From the NCBI GenBank assembly GCA_011390465.1, contig JAABSH010000037.1:1-38112 (forward strand): a stretch of 38,112 nucleotides of DNA. Reading direction: 5' to 3'. Positions 25,549-35,300 of this stretch are shown piece by piece (positions within the stretch are counted from its first letter, which is position 1; each line of letters starts with the position of its first letter). This stretch comes from Desulfobacteraceae bacterium (GTDB lineage: Bacteria > Desulfobacterota > Desulfobacteria > Desulfobacterales > Desulfosalsimonadaceae). The translations under genes and the position numbers were made by a program. Below the pieces are notes generated by a model. The model saw nothing but the letters and a program-made list of their open reading frames with translations, did no database searches and was not told the DNA's origin.

Positions 25549-26142
25549 ATGAAAATCGCATTAACGGCCTGGGAAGACAGAATTTCACCGGTGTTTGACG
25601 CCGCGCGCACACTGCTGATTGCGGAAGTTGAAAACGGAGAAATCGTTGACAGACAGCATGCATCGTTTTTTCCGGAAATGTCCTGGCGACTGGCCGGACT
25701 GCTGAACAACATGGAAATCGATGTGCTTATTTGCGGGGCGATTTCACAGTTTCCCGCCGGTGTAATTGAAAACAGCGGAATTCAGCTGATACCATTTGTC
25801 ACCGGCAATATTGAAAAAGTGCTGAGCGCGTATGTATCCGGCGCGGAGATTGTGCCGGCGTTTTCCATGCCCGGATGTGGATGGCGGCATGGACGGCGAA
25901 AAGGCCGCAATGTGACGTTTAATGCGCATAAGGAGGTGATAAGTATGCCACGAGGAGATAAAACAGGTCCCCGCGGAACCGGTCCTGGTACCGGGAAAAA
26001 CCGCGGCGGATGTAATAATGGTCAAAACAGCCCGCAGCCGGGCCAGGGACAAGGTCAAGGCCAGGGACAAGGCCAGGGACAAGGCCAGGGTCGCGGTCCG
26101 GGAAAGGGCCGGGGCCAGGGACAAGGCCGTGGAAACCGATAA
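25549..26142 (+). CDS. NifX-type (dinitrogenase FeMo-cofactor-like) protein fused in frame to a DUF5320-like tail
   Basis: Residues 1-115 form a NifX/NafY-type domain (MKIALTAWEDRISPVFDAAR ... GEIVDRQHASF ... VLICGAISQF ... GNIEKVLSAYVSG). These small folds bind Fe-S or FeMo-co-like clusters. A basic GCGWRHGRRKGRN region follows. Without any stop the frame then runs through an intact Shine-Dalgarno (aaggaggtgat, 25930-25940) and the ATG at 25945 into a DUF5320-like segment with a Gly-Gln repeat. Two readings are possible: a 197-residue fusion, or an ancestral gene pair whose intergenic stop was lost, so both fused and free tail proteins are made. It is the first gene after the sigma-54 promoter; the upstream ATG has only weak ribosome-site complementarity. 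Confidence 0.75.
   Translation: MKIALTAWEDRISPVFDAARTLLIAEVENGEIVDRQHASFFPEMSWRLAGLLNNMEIDVLICGAISQFPAGVIENSGIQLIPFVTGNIEKVLSAYVSGAEIVPAFSMPGCGWRHGRRKGRNVTFNAHKEVISMPRGDKTGPRGTGPGTGKNRGGCNNGQNSPQPGQGQGQGQGQGQGQGQGRGPGKGRGQGQGRGNR
25945..26142 (+). CDS. DUF5320-like Gly/Gln-rich protein from an internal start
   Basis: The ATG at 25945 has an excellent Shine-Dalgarno 5 bases upstream, better than that of the host frame. It begins MPRGDKTGPRGTGPGTGKNR, the classic N-terminus of DUF5320 proteins (MPxGDxTGPxGxGPxTG). The rest is a (GQ)n/(GR)n low-complexity tail with one Cys. The product would be 65 residues. I list it separately because initiation here is at least as likely as read-through from the NifX domain. 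No function is established for the family; the members sit beside NifX, Mrp and CGGC genes in anaerobes. Confidence 0.6.
   Translation: MPRGDKTGPRGTGPGTGKNRGGCNNGQNSPQPGQGQGQGQGQGQGQGQGRGPGKGRGQGQGRGNR
26041..26094 (+). repeat. 12-bp tandem repeat GGCCAGGGACAA inside the DUF5320-like gene
   Basis: Three near-exact units with a GGTCAA half-unit between the first two, and a partial fourth, encode the Gly-Gln run. A further related unit is at 26113-26126. The unit is a multiple of three, so slippage alters tail length without frameshift. Confidence 0.8.
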
Positions 26143-26163
26143 TTAATTAATTCATTGCTCATC

Positions 26164-26192
26164 CCCGGTTCGGACGTAAGCGCCGAACCGGG
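26164..26192 (+). terminator. Intercistronic hairpin between the two DUF5320-type genes
   Basis: A perfect 10-bp stem CCCGGTTCGG/CCGAACCGGG with a 9-base loop, followed by AAAATGAG rather than a U-tract. It is better read as an mRNA-processing or stabilising hairpin that sets unequal expression than as a strong terminator. Confidence 0.5.
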
Positions 26193-26221
26193 AAAATGAG
26201 CCAAGCCAAGGAGGTGTAAAA

Positions 26222-26539
26222 ATGCCTGGATTTGATGGAAGTGGACCTATGGGAGCCGGTCCCATGACCGGCGGTGCCCGGGGATATTGTAATCCTGGTT
26301 ATGCAGGATATAACCGGCCGGTGGGATATGGCAGAGGCATGGCCCGGGGCCGTGGCGCCGGAGCCGGTTATGGTATGGGCCGCGGTTTTCGCCGGGGATA
26401 TGGCGGAATGTATCCCCCTTATGCGCCGGCGTACGCACCGGCTGACGAACTGAGCGATTTGCGTCAGCAGGCCGATGCGGTTAAAAATACCCTGGATGCC
26501 ATTAACCGTCGCATTTCTGAAATTGACGGCGCGGAATAA
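26222..26539 (+). CDS. DUF5320 domain protein
   Basis: A 105-residue DUF5320 protein. The N-terminal signature is MPGFDGSGPMGAGPMTGGAR, then GYCNPGY. A Gly/Arg/Tyr/Met-rich middle follows (GRGMARGRGAGAGYGMGRGF, then PPYAPAYAP). The C-terminal amphipathic helix (DELSDLRQQADAVKNTLDAI, then NRRISEI) probably forms a coiled coil. It has a single Cys. The strong Shine-Dalgarno (aaggaggtg) 6 bases before the ATG suggests high expression. The role is unknown; this gene context (NifX, NifU-like, CGGC) suggests metal or cluster binding. It is complete for the family. Confidence 0.8.
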   Translation: MPGFDGSGPMGAGPMTGGARGYCNPGYAGYNRPVGYGRGMARGRGAGAGYGMGRGFRRGYGGMYPPYAPAYAPADELSDLRQQADAVKNTLDAINRRISEIDGAE

Positions 26540-26635
26540 CCTGCCGCAAGACTTGCCCGCGGCATGCGATTGAATGGGTAAACCAGCGGTGATTGGGTTA
26601 AATGGTTTTCAGTTTAACGTTCGGTAATGCGCAAA

Positions 26636-26679
26636 AAAATCCGTTTCCGGCAGAAAGCATGCCGCCGGAAGCGGATTTT
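26636..26679. terminator. Bidirectional rho-independent-type terminator
   Basis: AAAATCCGTTTCCGGC at 26636-26651 pairs with GCCGGAAGCGGATTTT at 26664-26679, a 16-bp stem with one G-U pair. It is preceded by a run of A and ends in T4, so it could work in either direction. It splits the cluster: downstream genes would need read-through or another promoter in 26680-26860. Confidence 0.7.
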
Positions 26680-26711
26680 CCATGGCAAGGACCCGGCCCG
26701 ATCAGGGTCCA

Positions 26712-26796
26712 GGTAACGGGTTTTTAAAAAAACAGATTGAATTTATAGACGAAATCACGTTAAACAGACAATCTGGTTTTTTAAAAGAGCGTTACC
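26712..26796. repeat. 85-bp inverted repeat with 28-bp arms before the second nifX-type gene
   Basis: The left arm 26712-26739 starts GGTAACG, then TTTTTAAAAAAACAGATTG. It is mirrored by the right arm 26769-26796 (CAATCTGGTTTTTTAAAA ... CGTTACC) with few mismatches. It lies in the 330-base gap between DUF5320 and the next gene. It may be a non-autonomous insertion or a large leader hairpin; no target duplication is obvious. Confidence 0.65.
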
Positions 26797-26867
26797 CTTC
26801 ATTTTTTTATTTTAACCTGCGCAGTATCACTGCGGATCAGGAAATACAATATCAGGAGGAAGTATCA

Positions 26868-27512
26868 ATGAAAATAGCAATCAGTGCAAAAGGCACGGAT
26901 CTGGATGCGGAAATTGATGAACGGTTTGGCCGGGCAGCGTATATATTGATTGTTGATCCGGACACAATGGCACTTGAAGTGCTTGATAACTCGGATAATA
27001 TCAATACAGCCCAGGGCGCGGGAATTCAGGCGGCATCCATGGTCAGCAACAAGGGGGCCAGGGCTTTGCTGACGGGTTCCTGCGGACCAAAAGCCATGAC
27101 GGCTTTTGGCGGTGCGGGTGTGACGGTTTATGCCGGACAGACCGGAACTGTGCGCCAGGCGGTTGAGCGGTTCAAGCAGGGAAATCTGCAGCAGACAACC
27201 CAGGCCAATGTTGGCGAGAAATTCGGCGTAAACGGCACGGGCGGGGCATCCGGCGGCATGCCCATGACCGGTGGCGGTCGCGGCATGGGTGGCGGCGGTC
27301 GTGCCATGGGAGGCCGTGGTATGGGCGGTGGCCGTCGCTGCATGGGCGGATCGGGTCGCGGCATGGGTGGCACTGGCATGGGAATGGCCAATGCCGGCGG
27401 CGCTGTCTCAACTTCAGCCGGCGGCAAAGAGAGCATTGCGGATCTGAAACGCCAGGCAGCGGAACTGCAGCGCCAGCTTGAAGCAATACAGAATAAAATT
27501 AAAGACATATAA
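26868..27512 (+). CDS. NifX-type protein with Gly/Met-rich linker and DUF5320-like C-terminal helix
   Basis: A 214-residue protein. The NifX/NafY-type domain (about 1-115) shows MKIAISAKGTDLDAEIDERF, GRAAYILIVD, NTAQGAGIQAASMVSNKGA, TGSCGPKAMTAF and GTVRQAVERFKQG. The linker (about 128-180) is almost only Gly, Met and Arg with one Cys; it opens GGMPMTGGGRGMGGGG, close to the PMTGGARG start of the DUF5320 protein at 26222. The C-terminus (SIADLKRQAAELQRQLEAIQ, then NKIKDI) is a helix matching the DUF5320 C-terminal helix in spacing. It therefore looks like a NifX-DUF5320 fusion. The start has aggagga 8 bases upstream; the longer in-frame extension to 26682 runs through the inverted repeat and is not protein-like. 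Confidence 0.82.
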   Translation: MKIAISAKGTDLDAEIDERFGRAAYILIVDPDTMALEVLDNSDNINTAQGAGIQAASMVSNKGARALLTGSCGPKAMTAFGGAGVTVYAGQTGTVRQAVERFKQGNLQQTTQANVGEKFGVNGTGGASGGMPMTGGGRGMGGGGRAMGGRGMGGGRRCMGGSGRGMGGTGMGMANAGGAVSTSAGGKESIADLKRQAAELQRQLEAIQNKIKDI

Positions 27513-27565
27513 AAAGAATAAGGCAATAAAGATTACGGATATATTTGAAAAGGGCAACAGCGGCC

Positions 27566-28024
27566 ATGAACGATTTTGATAATTTTGTAGATCAGCTTCA
27601 GGAACAGATATTTGATGAAGCCCGGGAAGCGTACGGCGAAAAAGGGTTTCACCGGTGGCGCAATCCCCGGTTTAACGGCGCAATGGATGGGCCGGACGGA
27701 TACGCGCGGCTGACCGGCGAATGCGGCGATACCATTGAGATTTTTTTGAAATTTGAAAATAACCGGGTGCAGGCGGCTTCTTATACGACGGACGGGTGTG
27801 CCTCCAGCGCCATTTGCGGGTCTTTTGCCGCGGAACTGGCCATTGGGCGGGATCCGGATGCGCTGACCGATATTAACGGCGATGCGGTACTGGCGGAAAT
27901 CGGCCGTCTGCCGGAATCAGACGTGCATTGCGCGGGCCTGGCCGCCGCTACGCTGCAGGAGGCCTTGAGCAATTATATGATCCGCATGAAAAGCCCGGAT
28001 AATCAAAAAAGTAAAGACCAATAA
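27566..28024 (+). CDS. NifU/IscU-like iron-sulfur cluster scaffold protein
   Basis: A 152-residue protein with the NifU N-terminal (IscU-like) fold. The three scaffold cysteines are recognisable: GECGDTIEIFLKFENN, then TTDGCASSAICGSFAAEL, then DVHCAGLAAATLQEAL. The Asp two residues before the second Cys (TDGC) is the assembly Asp. No C-terminal Nfu domain and no central 2Fe-2S domain are present, so it is the short type. It probably builds or holds clusters for the NifX-type partners encoded just upstream. The start could be the TTG at 27545 or the ATG at 27566; I chose the ATG because the protein similarity begins there. Confidence 0.85.
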   Translation: MNDFDNFVDQLQEQIFDEAREAYGEKGFHRWRNPRFNGAMDGPDGYARLTGECGDTIEIFLKFENNRVQAASYTTDGCASSAICGSFAAELAIGRDPDALTDINGDAVLAEIGRLPESDVHCAGLAAATLQEALSNYMIRMKSPDNQKSKDQ

Positions 28025-28037
28025 AAGGAGCAGTAAA

Positions 28038-28418
28038 ATGACAAAAGTGGCGATTATCCGTTGTGAGAAAAATGAGAACCGGTGCCCCCTGACCAATTGT
28101 TTAAAATGCCTGACAGACAGCAAGGAAGGATTTGCGGAATACGACAATGCCATGCCGGCCGGCGTTTTTACCTGCCGTTGTCCCGGAGACAATGTGGCGG
28201 ATCTGGCAAAAATACTCAAATCCAAAGGCGCGGAAGCCATTCATTTCTGTACCTGCACCTTTGCCAATAAGACGGATAAGGGGTGGGTCACGGGTCAGGG
28301 CGGATTCTGCGACCATGTGGATCAGCTCATAGAAACAGCTCACGCGGCAACGGGACTTCCCTGTGTCAAGGGAACGGCCCACCTGCCCAAAGATTATGCA
28401 GTGGAAATCCGGAAATAA
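28038..28418 (+). CDS. CGGC domain-containing protein
   Basis: A 126-residue cysteine-rich protein of the CGGC family (putative metal-binding). It starts MTKVAIIRCEKNENRCPLTN with CLKC following. Then come GVFTCRCPGDNVADLAKILK, an IHFCTCTFAN segment, a GGFCDHVDQLI segment and a TGLPCVKGTAHLP ending. It contains ten cysteines in 126 residues. The family is predicted to bind metals and is often encoded next to NifX/DUF5320-type genes in anaerobes. It follows the scaffold gene by 13 bases with aaaggag, so it is in the same operon. No experimentally defined function. Confidence 0.85.
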   Translation: MTKVAIIRCEKNENRCPLTNCLKCLTDSKEGFAEYDNAMPAGVFTCRCPGDNVADLAKILKSKGAEAIHFCTCTFANKTDKGWVTGQGGFCDHVDQLIETAHAATGLPCVKGTAHLPKDYAVEIRK

Positions 28419-28430
28419 ACATCAAAGCCA

Positions 28431-28964
28431 ATGACCCAGACAATTTCAAAGAAAAAATACGTTCAGTTATATACAGGCGACGGCAAAGGCAAAACCACTG
28501 CCGCCATTGGCATGGCCGTGCGTGCGGCCGGTCACGGCATGAAAACCTATGTGGGCCAGTTCATGAAAGGCTGGCCCTATGGGGAACTGGCGGCATTGAA
28601 AAATAATCCGTTGGTCACCATTGAGCAGTACGGGAATGAAGACTGCATCCGCAAACAGGATGTCACCCAGCCCCATATCGACCGGGCCTGCCAGGGCCTT
28701 GAAAAAATCAAGAGCGCCATGCATTCCGGAGAATATGATATTCTGATCCTGGATGAAATCAATGTGGCGGTCTGGTTTGGACTGCTCACAATACAACAGG
28801 TGACGGATCTTCTTGACACACGGCCGGAAAGTGTGGAATTGGTGTTGACCGGCCGGAACGCCCCCCAGGAATTAATCAACCGGGCGGATCTGGTGACGGA
28901 AATGAAAGAAGTAAAACATTATTACACCCATGGCATTCTGGCCCGGGACGGCATTGAACGCTGA
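28431..28964 (+). CDS. cobO: Cob(I)yrinic acid a,c-diamide adenosyltransferase
   Basis: A 177-residue CobO/BtuR/CobA-type ATP:corrinoid adenosyltransferase. The modified P-loop GDGKGKTTAAIGMAVRAAG binds ATP. QFMKGWPYGE, DILILDEINVAVWFGL and VELVLTGRNAPQELINRADL are family signatures, and the protein ends GILARDGIE as usual. It attaches the adenosyl group in B12 coenzyme synthesis or salvage. Its place 12 bases after the CGGC gene, away from other cob genes, is unusual and suggests that this operon's products serve or need a corrinoid, or that this P-loop protein has another role here. Confidence 0.9.
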   Translation: MTQTISKKKYVQLYTGDGKGKTTAAIGMAVRAAGHGMKTYVGQFMKGWPYGELAALKNNPLVTIEQYGNEDCIRKQDVTQPHIDRACQGLEKIKSAMHSGEYDILILDEINVAVWFGLLTIQQVTDLLDTRPESVELVLTGRNAPQELINRADLVTEMKEVKHYYTHGILARDGIER

Positions 28965-29441: not shown

Positions 29442-29520
29442 TTTTTGGTGTTTAAATTTCAGCTGAATCAGGGTAGATCAGGATAGGCATTTTTATAAAT
29501 CTTGGAAAAGGAGAGCAGTG

Positions 29521-30081
29521 ATGGCGGATACGACAGAAAACACCCAGGTGCCGGAGGTCAGCGGGCTTACCGTGCTGACCCTGGAAAATGAAGTGATGGC
29601 CCTTGCGTCGCTGTGGCAGCATCAGCGGATTGTGCTCACGTTTTTACGGCATTTCGGATGACTGTTTGCCCGGCAGCAGGCTGCTGCCCTAATGGAAATC
29701 AAAGACCAGCTGGATGCCGCAGGGGTGGGACTTGCGGCCATTGGCAGTGGAAAACCGGCCCAGGCCCGGGAGTTTATGGAATCCTTTTCTTTTACCGCTG
29801 AAATGTATGTGGACCCTTCTCTTAAAACCTACAAGGCCTTTAATCTCGTGCGGGGAGTGGGGCGTACCCTCGGGCCGTCGTCTGTTTTGCGGGGATTTTT
29901 TGCCATGAAAAAAGGCTTTCGCCAGGGAAAAAGCGCGGGCGACCTGTGGCAGCAGGGCGGCATGTTTGTATTGGATGCCGGCAGTCAGCCGGGGGATCAG
30001 ATGCTGTTTGCCCACCGCAACCAGAGCGCCGGGGATCATGCGGATTTAACTTTGGTGCTGGCGGCGGTCCGCGGGCAGTAA
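29521..30081 (+). CDS. Peroxiredoxin-like (AhpC/TSA_2, SelU-like) protein with in-frame UGA, candidate selenoprotein
   Basis: From the ATG at 29521, with a strong Shine-Dalgarno (aaaggag, 29507-29513), the frame reads VLTFLRHFG. It then meets TGA (29659-29661, codon 47) exactly where the family has its catalytic Cys (FLRHFGC...). It continues in the same frame with LFARQQAAALMEIKDQLDAA, GVGLAAIGSG, MYVDPSLKTYKAFNL, GGMFVLDAG, LFAHRN and DHADLTLVLAAV. This is the complete remainder of a PRX-like2/AhpC-TSA_2 protein of 186 residues. A hairpin fitting the bacterial SECIS model directly follows the UGA. I infer a selenocysteine protein with U-L-F-A in place of CxxC; the second Cys is Ala. The alternative is a Cys-to-stop mutation, which would leave a non-functional remnant. 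Role: thiol or peroxide redox chemistry in the cytoplasm. Confidence 0.75.
29662..29690 (+). promoter_or_regulatory. bSECIS-like hairpin after the UGA codon
   Basis: GGCAGCA (29672-29678) pairs perfectly with TGCTGCC (29682-29688) around the apical loop GGC. The loop begins with G and lies 17 bases after the UGA. This fits the bacterial SECIS rules (UGA-to-loop distance about 16-37 bases, small apical loop with G in its first two positions) for SelB-directed selenocysteine insertion. Confidence 0.65.
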
Positions 30082-30149: not shown

Positions 30150-31160
30150 ATGCTGAAACCAGCTCCTGCGATGTTTATTCGAATTCTTTTTCTGTGCGTG
30201 ATGCTTTTTTTACTGTCCGGTTGTGATGATTCCGATGATTCGTCGAAATCCACCGCTGAAAATCCAACCGCTGGAATCCCGACGCCGGATTATTCGGAAA
30301 AAGCATCCTGGCTTGCCTTTCCTGATAATCCCGACGAACACACGGCCGATATCCTGTGGTTTTATCCCACGGTGCTGGAAGAAGGCGACATGCTGATGGA
30401 CTATACCGACAAGGATTTGCAGCAGGCAGCCATGGGCACCATTGATCACCAGGCCAGCGTCTTTACGGACAGCGCCAATCTCTACGCTCCCTTTTACCGC
30501 CAGCTCAACAAAAACGGTTTCAGCCTTGAATTGTCGAAAGTGAATGAATTGCTGGCTTATGGCCAGAGCGACATGTGGCGCGCAATTGCTTACTACCTGG
30601 AGCATTACAACAACGGCAGGCCGTTTATTATCGCCGGGCACAGCCAGGGATCGAGCAATTTGCTGGAAATTCTGAAAGAGAATTGGGGGACCACCGGCAA
30701 AGAAGACTTACTCGTGGCTGCCTATCTTATTGGCTGGTCCATCACCCCCGCGGATATAGCTGAAAATCCTCTGATTCGTATGTGTGAGAGTGCAACGGAC
30801 ATAAATTGTTTTATCGCATATAACTCTTTAAAAGATGGCTTGCAGGACCAATCAATTCAAATCACGGCAGGGACCTGGGTCACCAATCCCCTTTCATGGG
30901 AAAGCAGTACCGAAGACGGCGAACTTGTACCGGCCTATGATAACCTTGGCGCGGTGTTTTTTCCGGAAGGGGAGGAACCCGTTTACTACCCCGGTTTTAC
31001 ATCCGCACAAATCAAAGATTCCGGACTCGTGTGTGACGTTGCCGATCCTGATTTAATCAGTCCGTCTGCCATGCCGGTGGGGATTTATCACCGTGATGAT
31101 TACTCGCTTTTTTATATGAATCTGAAGGAAAATGCGAGACAGAGAATTCTCGCTTTCTAA
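30150..31160 (+). CDS. DUF3089 lipoprotein, alpha/beta-hydrolase-like (copy 1)
   Basis: A 336-residue predicted lipoprotein. The signal sequence (MFIRILFLCVMLFLLSGC) ends in a lipobox with Cys at about 25, followed by an acidic linker (DDSDDSS). The DUF3089 domain has WLAFPDNPDEHTADILWFYP near its start, YAPFYRQLN, and the nucleophile elbow GHSQGS. DPDLISPSAMPVGIYHRDDY lies near the end. DUF3089 proteins resemble alpha/beta hydrolases; the substrate is unknown. The start has aggag 7-8 bases upstream. It is followed after 35 bases by a paralogue of the same architecture. Confidence 0.85.
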   Translation: MLKPAPAMFIRILFLCVMLFLLSGCDDSDDSSKSTAENPTAGIPTPDYSEKASWLAFPDNPDEHTADILWFYPTVLEEGDMLMDYTDKDLQQAAMGTIDHQASVFTDSANLYAPFYRQLNKNGFSLELSKVNELLAYGQSDMWRAIAYYLEHYNNGRPFIIAGHSQGSSNLLEILKENWGTTGKEDLLVAAYLIGWSITPADIAENPLIRMCESATDINCFIAYNSLKDGLQDQSIQITAGTWVTNPLSWESSTEDGELVPAYDNLGAVFFPEGEEPVYYPGFTSAQIKDSGLVCDVADPDLISPSAMPVGIYHRDDYSLFYMNLKENARQRILAF

Positions 31161-31195
31161 ACCGGACATTTTTCACAAGAAAAGGAACATAATCG

Positions 31196-32251
31196 ATGCA
31201 CCTAAAATCCATATCAGTCCTGCTTGCCTGTTCTCTCGCCCTTTTCATAATGGGGGGTTGCAGCAGTATCAAAAATACAACAGCTACCGGAACAACGCCA
31301 CACCAGCCTGACTATTCTGAAGCTTTTTCCTGGGTTGCCCGGTCAGAAACCATTAATCATCCGGTTGATGTATTTTATGTTCATCCGACGATTTACCTTG
31401 GCACCAACCCTGAAAATATGGATATTTCAGATGAAGCGCTCAGAGAAAATGCCAGAGGCCTGATAACCGCCCAGGCAGGGGTATATTCCCCTTTTGCAAA
31501 TTTGTTTGCCCCATTTTATCGCCAGCAATCGGCGGCATTACAGAGTATGGCGGCCGGCAATAACGGGGTGGATGCCTTTCAGGACCCCTTTTTTCAGGTT
31601 GGTTACGGGGATGTCGAAAGAGCATTCGACTATTATATTGATCATCTTAATCCTGACAGGCCATTTATTCTTGCCGGGCACAGTCAGGGGTCAATGGCGC
31701 TTATTCACCTTATGCGCAACCGGTTTAATAATCCTGTTCTGCAAAAGCGATTGGTAGCGGCTTATCTGATGGGTTACTCTGTAACGAAAACTGATTTGGA
31801 AAAATATCCTTGGATGAAGCTTGCCCGGGGGGAAACCGATATCGGAGGGATCATCACTTTTAACACCCAAGGCACAGAGGCCGGTGCGTCTCCGGTGTTG
31901 CTCCCGGGTGCGGTTGCGATTAATCCCCTGAACTGGAAAACAGACAATACCCCTGCGGGCTGCAGCGCAAACTTGGGGGCAAAATTTTTTAATGACGCAA
32001 CCGGTGAGCTTATCGAAGAAATCCCGAATTTTGCCGGTGCCTATGTGAATACGCACAAAGGCGTTTTAGTGGTTACGGATATGAAAACACCGGAGTCTGA
32101 GAAAATCGATTTGGTTCACATGGGAAGATGGCCCGCAGGTGTTTTTCATCGGTTTGACTATTCCTTTTGGTTTAACAATCTGAAAGTCAATGTAAAAAAA
32201 AGAATCGCCGCTTATCAGGAATACGGAGGCGCCCCCTCCCTTTGCAATTGA
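31196..32251 (+). CDS. DUF3089 lipoprotein, alpha/beta-hydrolase-like (copy 2)
   Basis: A 351-residue paralogue of the preceding gene. The signal peptide ends in a somewhat atypical lipobox (FIMGGC, Cys at about 22). The DUF3089 domain shows VDVFYVHPTIYLG, FANLFAPFYRQQS, FDYYIDHLNPDRPFILAGHS then QGS with the nucleophile Ser, VAAYLMGYSV, LVHMGRWPAGVFHRFDYSFW. The same motifs appear in the same order as in copy 1, but the sequences have diverged widely, so the duplication is old. Likely anchored to a membrane facing the periplasm. The Shine-Dalgarno is aaagga. Substrate unknown. Confidence 0.85.
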   Translation: MHLKSISVLLACSLALFIMGGCSSIKNTTATGTTPHQPDYSEAFSWVARSETINHPVDVFYVHPTIYLGTNPENMDISDEALRENARGLITAQAGVYSPFANLFAPFYRQQSAALQSMAAGNNGVDAFQDPFFQVGYGDVERAFDYYIDHLNPDRPFILAGHSQGSMALIHLMRNRFNNPVLQKRLVAAYLMGYSVTKTDLEKYPWMKLARGETDIGGIITFNTQGTEAGASPVLLPGAVAINPLNWKTDNTPAGCSANLGAKFFNDATGELIEEIPNFAGAYVNTHKGVLVVTDMKTPESEKIDLVHMGRWPAGVFHRFDYSFWFNNLKVNVKKRIAAYQEYGGAPSLCN

Positions 32252-32331
32252 CTTTTGGGGCCGGTTTTGTCATGGTTTTTCAACAATAAAAACATTGAAG
32301 CAACTTTTATTTTTTTTTCAGGAGAATGACC

Positions 32332-33000
32332 ATGGCCCGTTTTTTTGCGCATAAAATATTTCAAACCGGCATTCTGGTGGCCGCAGCCCTGGTACTTTTC
32401 GGATGCCAGAGTGTTTATTACAATACCATGGAAAAATTCGGGGTTCAGAAGCATGAAATTCTGGCGGACCGGGTGGAAGACGCCCGGGATGAGCAGGAAA
32501 AAACCAAAGAGCAGTTCCAGACCGCTCTAGAGCGGTTTACAGAGGTGGTGAATTTCGACGGCGGCGTGCTGGAGGAAAAGTATGAAATTTTGAACGCGGA
32601 GTTCCAGCGCTGTGAAAAACAGGCCAAAGCCGTAAACAAGCGCATTGGGGCAGTAGAAGATGTGGGAGAAGCCCTTTTCAAGGAATGGGAAGCCGAACTC
32701 AGCCAATACAGCAATGTCCAGCTGCGGCGCTCAAGCCAGCAGAAACTTGCGGAAACCCGCCTGGAATATGACCAGCTTGTCCGCTCCATGCGCCGGGCTG
32801 AAGATAAAATCGATCCGGTGCTGTCCGCGTTTCAGGATCAGGTGTTGTTTTTAAAACACAACTTAAATGCCAGTGCCATTGCGTCGCTTCAAAGTGAACT
32901 GGCAGTGGTGGAAACCGACGTGGCCACCCTTATCCGGGAAATGGAAGCCGCCATTGCTGAAGCAGACGGGTTTATCAAGACCATTGCGGCGGCCAAATAG
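32332..33000 (+). CDS. DUF2959 family lipoprotein
   Basis: A protein of about 222 residues with a signal peptide and a lipobox (LVLFGC, Cys at about 25), followed by the DUF2959 start QSVYYNTMEKFGVQKHEILA. The remainder is a long, charged, almost wholly helical coiled-coil protein (VEDARDEQEKTKEQFQTALE ... LRRSSQQKLAETRLEYDQLV). The family has no known function; it may be a periplasmic spacer or stress lipoprotein. I take the second ATG (32332) because aggag is 7 bases from it and too close to the first (32326). Confidence 0.82.
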   Translation: MARFFAHKIFQTGILVAAALVLFGCQSVYYNTMEKFGVQKHEILADRVEDARDEQEKTKEQFQTALERFTEVVNFDGGVLEEKYEILNAEFQRCEKQAKAVNKRIGAVEDVGEALFKEWEAELSQYSNVQLRRSSQQKLAETRLEYDQLVRSMRRAEDKIDPVLSAFQDQVLFLKHNLNASAIASLQSELAVVETDVATLIREMEAAIAEADGFIKTIAAAK

Positions 33001-33014
33001 TTTTCGCGTTGGTT

Positions 33015-35300
33015 ATGACCCAGTGGAATGACAATGCCGCGGCCGTGGCATCACGGTTTGTGAACAGCACCGGCCGCCATGTATTTCTTACGGGCAAGGC
33101 AGGCACCGGAAAAACCACATTTCTGCACGCCATCAGCCGCAGCACCCACAAGAACACCATTGTCGCGGCGCCCACCGGCATTGCCGCCATCAATGCCCAC
33201 GGCGTTACCCTGCATTCGCTGTTTCAGCTGCCCTTTGGCGCCTTTATTCCCTCGGACCGTTTCCCCGGTGAAGAAGCCCCGGCGTTTGCCCTCCATACCC
33301 CGGCCACACTGACCCGTAATATGCGGATGCACGGGACCAAGCGCGATCTTTTGAAAAAACTCGAACTGCTCATTATTGACGAGGTGAGCATGCTGCGGGC
33401 GGACTTGCTGGATGCCATTGACAGTGTGCTGCGGCGCGTCCGGCGCAGCAATGCGCCGTTTGGCGGCGTTCAGATGCTGTTCATCGGCGATCTTCAGCAG
33501 CTTCCGCCCGTGGTGAAAGACGCGGAATGGCAGGTGCTGCAGGAATTTTATCCCACCTGTTTTTTCTTTTCCGCCCGGGTCCTTGCACACGACCCGCCCG
33601 TGTATATCGAACTGGAAAAAATCTACCGCCAGGCCGATGAAACCTTTATTTCCGTGCTGAACCATTTGCGCGACAACCAGTTGACCCCCCATGACATTGA
33701 AATCCTGAATCAGTATTACCGGCCTGGATTTTCGCCGGCCGCAGGGGACGGATATGTTTACCTGACCACTCACAATTACAAGGCAGACTGTATGAACCGC
33801 GAAGCGCTGGAAGGGCTTCCCGGAAAGACATACACCTACCCGGCCATTGTGGAAGGCACGTTTGATGAAAATATTTATCCGGTGGATCCGGTGCTGGCAC
33901 TTAAAAAAAATGCCCAGGTCATGTTTGTGAAAAATGATCCATCCGGCGAAGGGCGGTTTTTTAACGGTAAAATCGGCACAGTGGCTGCCCTCACGGACAA
34001 AGAGATAACCGTGGCGTTTTCCGACGGCACTTCCCCTGTGACAGTGGAAAGATATTCATGGGAAAATAAGCGCTTTGCCCTGAACAAGGAAACCGGTGAG
34101 ATCGAGGAAAAAGTGATCGGTGTCTTTGTCCACTATCCGTTAAAACTGGCCTGGGCCATTACCGTGCACAAAAGCCAGGGCCTGACATTTGAAAAAGCCG
34201 TGATTGATGTGTCCCGGGCCTTTGCCGCCGGACAGGTGTATGTGGCATTGTCCCGGCTTACGTCCCTGGACGGTCTGGTGCTCACGGCGCCGTTTACCCA
34301 TCAGAACATGATGCAGGAGGCCGCGCTTGAAAAATTTGCTGAACTGAAAACAGATGTCAAGACCCTGGAACAGGGCCTGAATGCGGACTCCATCGCCTAT
34401 TTGCGCCAGGCCGTGACAGATGCCTTTGATTTTAAGGCATTGCGCACGGAGCTGGATTTTCATGTGCGCACTTATACCAAAGACGCGGTACGTTCGGAAA
34501 AGCAGAAACATCTGGAATGGGCCCGGGGGCTTTGCGCGGACCTGAAGCCGGTCAAAGCGGTGGGCGATAAATTTTTAAACCAGCTGGGCCGGATTTTTGA
34601 CAGCCTTGAACAGCCGGACACGGGCCAGGATTTTTCTTTTTTAATAGAGCGCATTCACGCAGCCAGAAATTATTTTGAGCCTGTGTTTAATGATTTTTCA
34701 AAAAAAATCGCAGCCCAGATTACGGAATTGCAGGCCCATAAAAAAAAGGTAAAACAATACGTCAATGAGTTAAAAGATTTGGATCTGCTGTTTTACGGGC
34801 AGGTTCAGAAAATATACAAAGCCGCTGACCTGGCGGCGGCGGCTGTGGATGAAAAAGAGCTCACAAAAGCAGACCTTCAGCTTCCCAGTCGCAGCGATGC
34901 CGTGGCCTTAGCCTGTGCGGAAAGTGAGAAGACCGCAGCCGTTCGAAAAGGGAATACGGGCGCCGGCGGTAAAAAAAACGGCAGCTACCAGCAATCCGAT
35001 ACCTGGGAAAAAACCCTGGAAATGTACAATAGTGGAAAGCCGGTTCATGAAATTGCAGCTGTTCGGTCTTTAAAACTTTCAACCATTTACACCCATCTGG
35101 CCCGCTGGGTTGAAGAAGGCGAGATTGATGCCTGCCGGCTGGTTTCAAAAGAAACCCTGGATGAAATCGCAGCGGCGTTCAAGAAGGCGGAATTATCCAG
35201 CCTGAGCGCCATGAAAACCCAATTTGAAGACAAATATGATTACAACACCCTGCGCCTGGGGCTGGCATTTTTGCGATACCAGGAGCTGGCCAAAGATTAG
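33015..35300 (+). CDS. PIF1-like SF1 helicase with C-terminal RQC-type helix-turn-helix
   Basis: A protein of about 761 residues. The N-terminal SF1B helicase core has Walker A TGKAGTGKTTFL at about 27-38, AAPTGIAAINAHGVTLHSLF (motif Ia), LLIIDEVSMLRADLLDAID (motif II), MLFIGDLQQLPPVV (motif III), and late motifs ITVHKSQGLTFEKAVID and VYVALSRLTSLDGL. This is the PIF1/RecD2-like pattern. A coiled-coil middle (about 530-640) follows, then a C-terminal HTH_40-type domain as in RecQ-like proteins (KTLEMYNSGKPVHEIAAVRS). It is probably a DNA helicase for replication or recombination intermediates. The start is the ATG at 33015 (an in-frame TTG lies at 33009); no good Shine-Dalgarno is present. It follows the DUF2959 gene by 14 bases. 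Confidence 0.88.
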   Translation: MTQWNDNAAAVASRFVNSTGRHVFLTGKAGTGKTTFLHAISRSTHKNTIVAAPTGIAAINAHGVTLHSLFQLPFGAFIPSDRFPGEEAPAFALHTPATLTRNMRMHGTKRDLLKKLELLIIDEVSMLRADLLDAIDSVLRRVRRSNAPFGGVQMLFIGDLQQLPPVVKDAEWQVLQEFYPTCFFFSARVLAHDPPVYIELEKIYRQADETFISVLNHLRDNQLTPHDIEILNQYYRPGFSPAAGDGYVYLTTHNYKADCMNREALEGLPGKTYTYPAIVEGTFDENIYPVDPVLALKKNAQVMFVKNDPSGEGRFFNGKIGTVAALTDKEITVAFSDGTSPVTVERYSWENKRFALNKETGEIEEKVIGVFVHYPLKLAWAITVHKSQGLTFEKAVIDVSRAFAAGQVYVALSRLTSLDGLVLTAPFTHQNMMQEAALEKFAELKTDVKTLEQGLNADSIAYLRQAVTDAFDFKALRTELDFHVRTYTKDAVRSEKQKHLEWARGLCADLKPVKAVGDKFLNQLGRIFDSLEQPDTGQDFSFLIERIHAARNYFEPVFNDFSKKIAAQITELQAHKKKVKQYVNELKDLDLLFYGQVQKIYKAADLAAAAVDEKELTKADLQLPSRSDAVALACAESEKTAAVRKGNTGAGGKKNGSYQQSDTWEKTLEMYNSGKPVHEIAAVRSLKLSTIYTHLARWVEEGEIDACRLVSKETLDEIAAAFKKAELSSLSAMKTQFEDKYDYNTLRLGLAFLRYQELAKD

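Follow-up and report, generated by a model that had tools for sequence, protein, structure and literature searches.

A probable selenoprotein of the AhpC-TSA_2 class with a U-x-x-A active site in Desulfobacterales

We asked whether a UGA triplet inside a peroxiredoxin-like reading frame of a Desulfobacteraceae bacterium is a stop signal or the codon of a catalytic selenocysteine (Sec). The window, that is, the whole stretch of 38,112 nucleotides analysed, is contig C50 of a genome (G000) of 3.93 Mb in 119 contigs that is given as 100% complete. The original prediction had placed the start of the gene behind a strong ribosome site and had read the frame through the UGA into an AhpC/TSA_2 domain. 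Indeed, an AAGGAG motif precedes the start codon (Table 1), and from ATG 29521 to the TAA at 30079-30081 the frame is open, with the TGA at 29659-29661 as its single interruption. A scan for promoters and terminators was given no weight: it returned four weak promoter-like sites where 0.8 would be expected, and the strand of the gene showed no terminator.

Table 1. Positions in the window of the predicted selenoprotein gene and its signals
Feature	Position	Strand	Basis or remark
Ribosome-binding site AAGGAG	29508..29513	+	sequence read; 7 bases 5' of ATG 29521
Peroxiredoxin-like (AhpC-TSA_2) gene, 186 residues, U47	29521..30081	+	kept in relatives
In-frame UGA, codon 47, catalytic-Cys position	29659..29661	+	sequence and relatives
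Codon 50, Ala at U+3; second Cys there in CxxC and UxxC relatives	29668..29670	+	
bSECIS hairpin	29672..29688	+	six pairs conserved in relatives (29672-29677/29683-29688); loop AGGCT 29678-29682 from +17
Standard-code ORF, 129 aa	29692..30081	+	start-to-stop ORF list

The predicted 186-residue protein contains no Cys, and Sec47 is its sole Cys-type residue. Its active-site motif is U-L-F-A, which agrees with the U-x-x-A site that had been proposed. The domain assignment held in part: PF13911 (AhpC-TSA_2) matches in frame with 77.7 bits against a gathering cut-off of 27, but it spans residues 57-168 only, and the active-site strand is covered by a weaker match to PF00578 (AhpC-TSA; 28.2 bits, cut-off 26, residues 18-111). 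Truncation of the gene by a standard caller had also been foreseen, and the standard-code list does give only the part that begins at ATG 29692, residue 58 of the full frame. If the UGA were a true stop, a fragment of this kind would be the only product, or the gene would be a pseudogene; the ATG that opens an ORF 3' of the UGA speaks for this reading. A fragment from residue 58, however, would lack the active site as well as strands 17-19, 25-27 and 37-44 of the structural model, and no ribosome site was spotted by eye 5' of ATG 29692.

Relatives share the TGA. Thirty of 98 related genomes had a match (the window's own genome counted), and in 29 of them the best match has TGA at the same place; the odd one out, L051, is a remote homologue that has Cys and lacks the TGA. 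Two further weak matches in this set comprised one with TGA and one without. An order-wide search (E<=1e-15) gave 89 matches in 86 of 389 genomes, all with TGA, which stood at the active site in 88, the remaining copy being degenerate. Phylum-wide, nine matches were obtained in 395 genomes, eight with TGA and one with Cys (L147). The profile model used in both searches carried Cys in the active-site column, and thus the searches were not biased toward TGA. Removal of duplicates left 95 distinct sequences, of which 92 have U at the active-site motif, two have Cys (L051 and L147) and one, L128, is degenerate and has a TAA in addition. The Cys of L051 (HGCPIC) and that of L147 (VGCPIC), the only two bacterial Cys forms available for comparison, align to U47, as does, by span, C44 of human prostamide/prostaglandin F synthase, which bears out the claim that the UGA occupies the position of the catalytic Cys. 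Within the clade of the window gene the codon is TGA in 34 of 34 members; no Cys form of this UxxA clade was found among the genomes searched, and a plasmid search for Cys relatives gave no match. Alternation of TGA with TGC or TGT at codon 47, which had been suggested as a check, is therefore not seen in the clade.

Because the relatives, named ones being of Desulfobacterales type (Desulfatibacillum alkenivorans, a cultured carrier with the gene in L053, and MAGs of a Desulfobacteraceae member and of a Desulfococcus), have TGA at the same place, the triplet is not a misread TGC or TGT, and the shared TGA likewise led us to reject a pseudogene. In comparisons with L023 and L024, third codon positions were the most variable on both sides of the UGA. 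Differences numbered 25 and 29 in the 46 codons before it and 73 and 73 in the 138 codons after it, and non-synonymous codons 20 and 19 of 46 versus 33 and 33 of 138; the N-terminal part is less constrained than the part after the UGA. Of the 389 genomes of the order, 303 gave no match, many of these being incomplete, so that the gene appears dispensable in the order, as termination at the UGA would allow. Yet the segment FLRHFG, or one close to it, precedes the same TGA in clade members, and we regard a true stop as extremely improbable.

If the UGA is decoded as Sec, a bSECIS hairpin should follow it, and one had been predicted as a 7-bp stem with loop GGC, 17 bases downstream. The hairpin exists and the window copy can form these seven pairs (GGCAGCA 29672-29678, loop GGC 29679-29681, TGCTGCC 29682-29688), but in this form the loop begins at +18, and what relatives keep is the six-pair form of Table 1. 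The geometry limits that we applied are general knowledge. Significance from the window sequence by itself was dropped as an argument: a stem of at least seven pairs in the same geometry accompanies 87 of the 1385 TGA triplets of the window (both strands), and the single-sequence folding energy was ordinary relative to shuffles (z 0.32).

Compared across the 34 relatives, in contrast, the evidence for a conserved signal is strong. All 34 clade members have at least five pairs together with a G at loop base 1 or 2, whereas 500 synonymous redraws gave 12.8 such members on average and never more than 21, a contrast that is inflated to some degree because the synonymous null breaks the kinship among the sequences. 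All five inner pairs are intact at the common place in 33 of 34 (the exception is L123), AGG opens the loop in 33, and the longest stem lies off the common place in L038, L079 and L123. In a covariation test of the 34 members, 96.6% of cells were paired versus 91.3% in shuffles, and three pairs had changed on both sides, which 2 of 500 shuffles equalled; the number of further pair types was not unusual, 126 of 500 shuffles being as high. Sliding the structure by -3 (one codon) left 87.7% of cells paired, with a covariation score of 0.174 versus 0.162 at the true place. Pair 5, formed by the third position of codon 51 (a silent base) and the middle position of codon 56, shows a compensatory change, being G-C in 29 members and U-A in five and thus paired every time; Asp at residue 56 (otherwise Ala) goes with a T-ending codon 51, a covariation in which RNA signal and protein sequence constrain each other. 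The copy in L123 (G107:C18), with the only broken inner pair among the 34, is shortened although it lies within a long contig, and it is perhaps a decaying gene. In rows of the UPFC branch (for example L046, L049, L126 and L131) the best-scoring position of the hairpin is mostly between +24 and +26, not +17, as if the position of a SECIS-like signal had shifted within the gene family.

Selenocysteine insertion depends on its decoding genes, and all four that had been named for a check are present in the genome. These are one selA (613 bits), selB with two homologues above the cut-off (367 bits), one selD above the cut-off (374 bits) and tRNA-Sec (76.5 bits), and the genome has two tRNA genes with a UCA anticodon. 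The selD gene has its own in-frame TGA, with active site G-U-A-S-K, and therefore serves as an internal control for UGA as a sense codon in this host. Both selB and tRNA-Sec were looked for in 60 genomes, 19 of which carry the clade gene. In 18 of these 19, tRNA-Sec or selB was found at the thresholds used; the exception, G027, is 71% complete. In G021 (99% complete, 8 contigs) the clade gene occurs with one tRNA-Sec and one selB, so that what looks like a Sec-only decoding route is seen in a carrier. The decoding genes and the TGA of the relatives thus support the core of the original prediction, a selenoprotein in which UGA takes the place of the catalytic Cys codon and a bSECIS element follows. 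UGA 29659 is in all likelihood decoded as Sec, and judging from sequence comparison, the window gene probably encodes a genuine selenoprotein of the broad peroxiredoxin-like class.

A second cassette for UGA decoding lies on contig C108 of the same genome (L206, 8966-10977). Its tRNA has 92 bases (CCA included), a UCA anticodon, an 8/4 fold and, by eye, U73 and a bulged A in the T stem; the acceptor is formed by GAGGGCAA with TTGCCCTC, followed by T and CCA. A SelB homologue of 635 residues starts 12 bases downstream of this tRNA. Pairs of tRNA and selB were fetched from ten of the 60 genomes, and by eye U73 is present in all ten, A1:U72 in seven and G1:C72 in three, those of the window's genus; further tRNA matches lie in G040, G050 and G056. 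In PMC7609411, selC*-type tRNAs are described as carrying tRNA-Cys identity and as preceding a second selB in Desulfobacterales, with A1:U72 and with cysS* downstream of selB*. The cassette in the window's genome resembles that system, as given there, in the UCA anticodon, U73, the 8/4 fold, the bulged A of the T stem and the adjoining selB*, but differs from it in having G1:C72 and no adjoining cysS*; a search of contig C108 for cysS gave no match at E<=1e-30. A second CysRS homologue was seen elsewhere in the genome (G000:C86:40564-41934), in an open frame of 763 residues that extends well past the 458 matched positions, and of 13 genomes searched, 11 have a long second frame of this type (763-801 residues), whether or not they carry the second cassette.

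Given this cassette, Cys at the UGA is possible: a selC*-like tRNA and SelB* could read the codon as Cys, wholly or under selenium shortage, and the UCA anticodon and U73 of the tRNA beside the second SelB, together with the tRNA-Cys identity of such tRNAs reported in PMC7609411, point that way. However, a second selB was found in only 6 of the 19 carriers; the other 13, which include the well-assembled G021, G013 and G003, showed none at E<=1e-60, although this absence counts less in several carriers because their genomes are incomplete. Nothing evident sets the hairpins of cassette carriers (L022, L026, L028, L034, L035 and L040) apart from the others, and a Cys codon would serve at less cost, yet every clade member keeps TGA. 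We therefore consider decoding as Cys unlikely, and the simplest view is ordinary decoding as Sec, since 13 carriers, some of them well assembled, have no second selB. It is similarly doubtful that two decoders, Sec-tRNA-Sec with SelB and a selC*-type Cys-tRNA with SelB*, share one SECIS-marked UGA in the window's genome and five other carriers. If they did, one gene would give the enzyme with either selenium or sulfur, set by selenium supply. The presence of the selC*/SelB*-like cassette in the genome provides a natural setting in which to ask how codons are divided between two UGA decoders.

We further placed the predicted selenoprotein among known families. A link to SelU had been suggested, and two family scans gave no SelU; the closest curated family is NF040769 (SelL-related redox protein), of which the window protein is the sole match in its genome at E<=0.001. 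The likeness is near full-length (residues 18-182 to model 8-172), but the score of 107.2 bits is below the curated cut-off of 120, and the active site is U-x-x-A. One of five UxxA-clade proteins scanned passes this cut-off (L035, 121.9), and among four UxxC relatives L046 (166.7) and L048 (153.2), both with UPFC, pass and L042 (106.2) and L044 (97.3) do not. Few clade proteins pass while the wider family is named, and thus the window branch lies at the edge of NF040769. SelL proper has the motif UxxU, which the U-L-F-A of the window protein does not share. The 2-Cys peroxiredoxins require a resolving Cys, and the Cys-free window protein does not belong with them.

In a tree of 91 rows, the window gene fell into a clade of 32 with support of 100/98 (the bootstrap not being fully settled), of which 30 are UxxA, one UxxS and one UxxC. 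Tree-wide, 51 UxxC, 34 UxxA, 4 UxxS and 2 CxxC motifs were counted, with at least ten changes among the four states. When the shortened L041 (at a contig end) and L123 are included, U+3 is Ala in 32 of 34 members, and 23 of the 34 domain regions, both shortened members included, contain no Cys. A Cys near the C-terminus occurs at U+132 in eight of the 34 and at U+136 in L024. One genome, G116, has both a UxxC (L076) and a UxxA (L084) member of the same clade.

An AhpC/TSA selenoprotein of an Olavius algarvensis symbiont was reportedly first described by Zhang and Gladyshev in 2007. It is tabulated, in PMC9312934 and PMC13188914, under pfam13911/cd02970 with the motif UxxS. As listed there, it resembles the window protein in belonging to the PF13911 family with Sec at the first active-site position, and UxxS versus UxxA sets the two apart by tabulated motif, not by alignment. 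The accessible part of the family table in PMC13188914 has no UxxA entry for the AhpC-TSA_2 domain. In open-licence literature we found no report of a UxxA selenoprotein and nothing on topic for SelL/Fam213.

What such a protein might do was approached through its fold. An AlphaFold model built from a four-sequence alignment (pLDDT 62, pTM 0.66; residues 102-142 below pLDDT 50) places residue 47 after beta-strand 37-44 and just before helix 48-59. Among the best 1000 Foldseek chains, the top rows are peroxiredoxins, Vibrio vulnificus Prx3 (Z 14.6, 15% identity) and Xanthomonas PrxQ (PrxQ/BCP; Z 14.2); further matches are human prostamide/prostaglandin F synthase (Z 13.8, 28% identity) and the 1-Cys AhpE (Z 12.8). 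The human synthase (9us9, E 9.7e-16) is also the closest solved sequence and the only good sequence match; a match to 4wsl (E 1.3e-6), beside two entries of the human synthase, was set aside as weak, with no stretch passing alone. Query residues 22-177 match chain residues 19-174, which are equal lengths, and if the match is ungapped U47 corresponds to human residue 44 and A50 to 47; the title of 9usa names C44 and C47. The human enzyme thus has two Cys where the window protein would have one Sec, and the modelled fold that it shares with peroxiredoxins does not fix its function.

The lack of any Cys in the window protein leads us to expect a peroxidase with a single selenocysteine, which a thiol from outside the protein would resolve. 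In the proposed sequence of events, SelB loaded with Sec-tRNA-Sec would bind the hairpin and selenocysteine would be inserted at the UGA to give the 186-residue protein of thioredoxin fold. Hydroperoxide would then oxidise Sec47, at the start of the helix that follows strand 37-44, to selenenic acid, which would be reduced by a low-molecular thiol from outside or by a partner protein. The 1-Cys peroxiredoxins and the selenium glutathione peroxidases use a comparable route of reduction by outside thiol. In them, too, a single catalytic residue has no resolving Cys close by, and AhpE matches in fold, but as far as tested they belong to a different sequence family, and the likeness in mechanism is inferred. 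On this model-based view the product may well be a one-Sec peroxidase. The main alternative to peroxidase chemistry is thiol exchange or another electrophile substrate: the protein could be a thiol/selenol transferase or a reductase of another substrate, similar to prostamide/prostaglandin F synthase. The decoding part of our reading is compatible with this alternative. The sequence match to the human synthase is in favour, and a membrane substrate is conceivable because some relatives look, by eye, like lipoproteins. Against it, the second human Cys, C47, falls at Ala in the window protein, and the top structural matches are peroxiredoxins. We hold this alternative to be possible, and a one-Sec peroxidase is the reading that we prefer.

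Neighbouring genes gave no further clue to function. By blastp of 341 neighbouring open frames, in flanks to about 1.5 kb, no family recurred in more than three clade loci, and an operon partner was dropped as a functional clue, as no recurrent neighbour pointed to a substrate or reductant. Just upstream in the window (25549-28964) lie two Nitro_FeMo-Co proteins with DUF5320-like tails and NifU_N, CGGC and CobO-type genes; downstream (30150-35300) are two successive DUF3089 proteins, followed by DUF2959 and by a PIF1-like helicase that carries HTH_40. The window gene has a cytosolic start only. By eye, 11 of the 34 clade members (L025, L026, L029, L032, L040, L060, L069, L070, L073, L078 and L084) begin with a lipoprotein-type signal, and L144 has a signal-like start. 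In nine of the 11, L078 and L084 being without it, an in-frame ATG follows the lipobox near the starts of the cytosolic forms, mostly behind a purine-rich ribosome-like site. A lipoprotein signal combined with an internal ATG means that in these relatives one selenoprotein gene may yield both an exported and a cytosolic enzyme.

AhpC-TSA_2 selenoproteins were already known, and by its sequences the UxxA branch, in which the partner Cys is nearly always Ala, is the added variant. Sec looks obligatory in this branch because no Cys form was found in 34 members and the window copy has no resolving Cys. The finding amends a gene model that standard gene calling would presumably break off at the active site. 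Moreover, a branch that uses only Sec would make the question of why selenium and not sulfur is employed testable by a single U-to-C swap.
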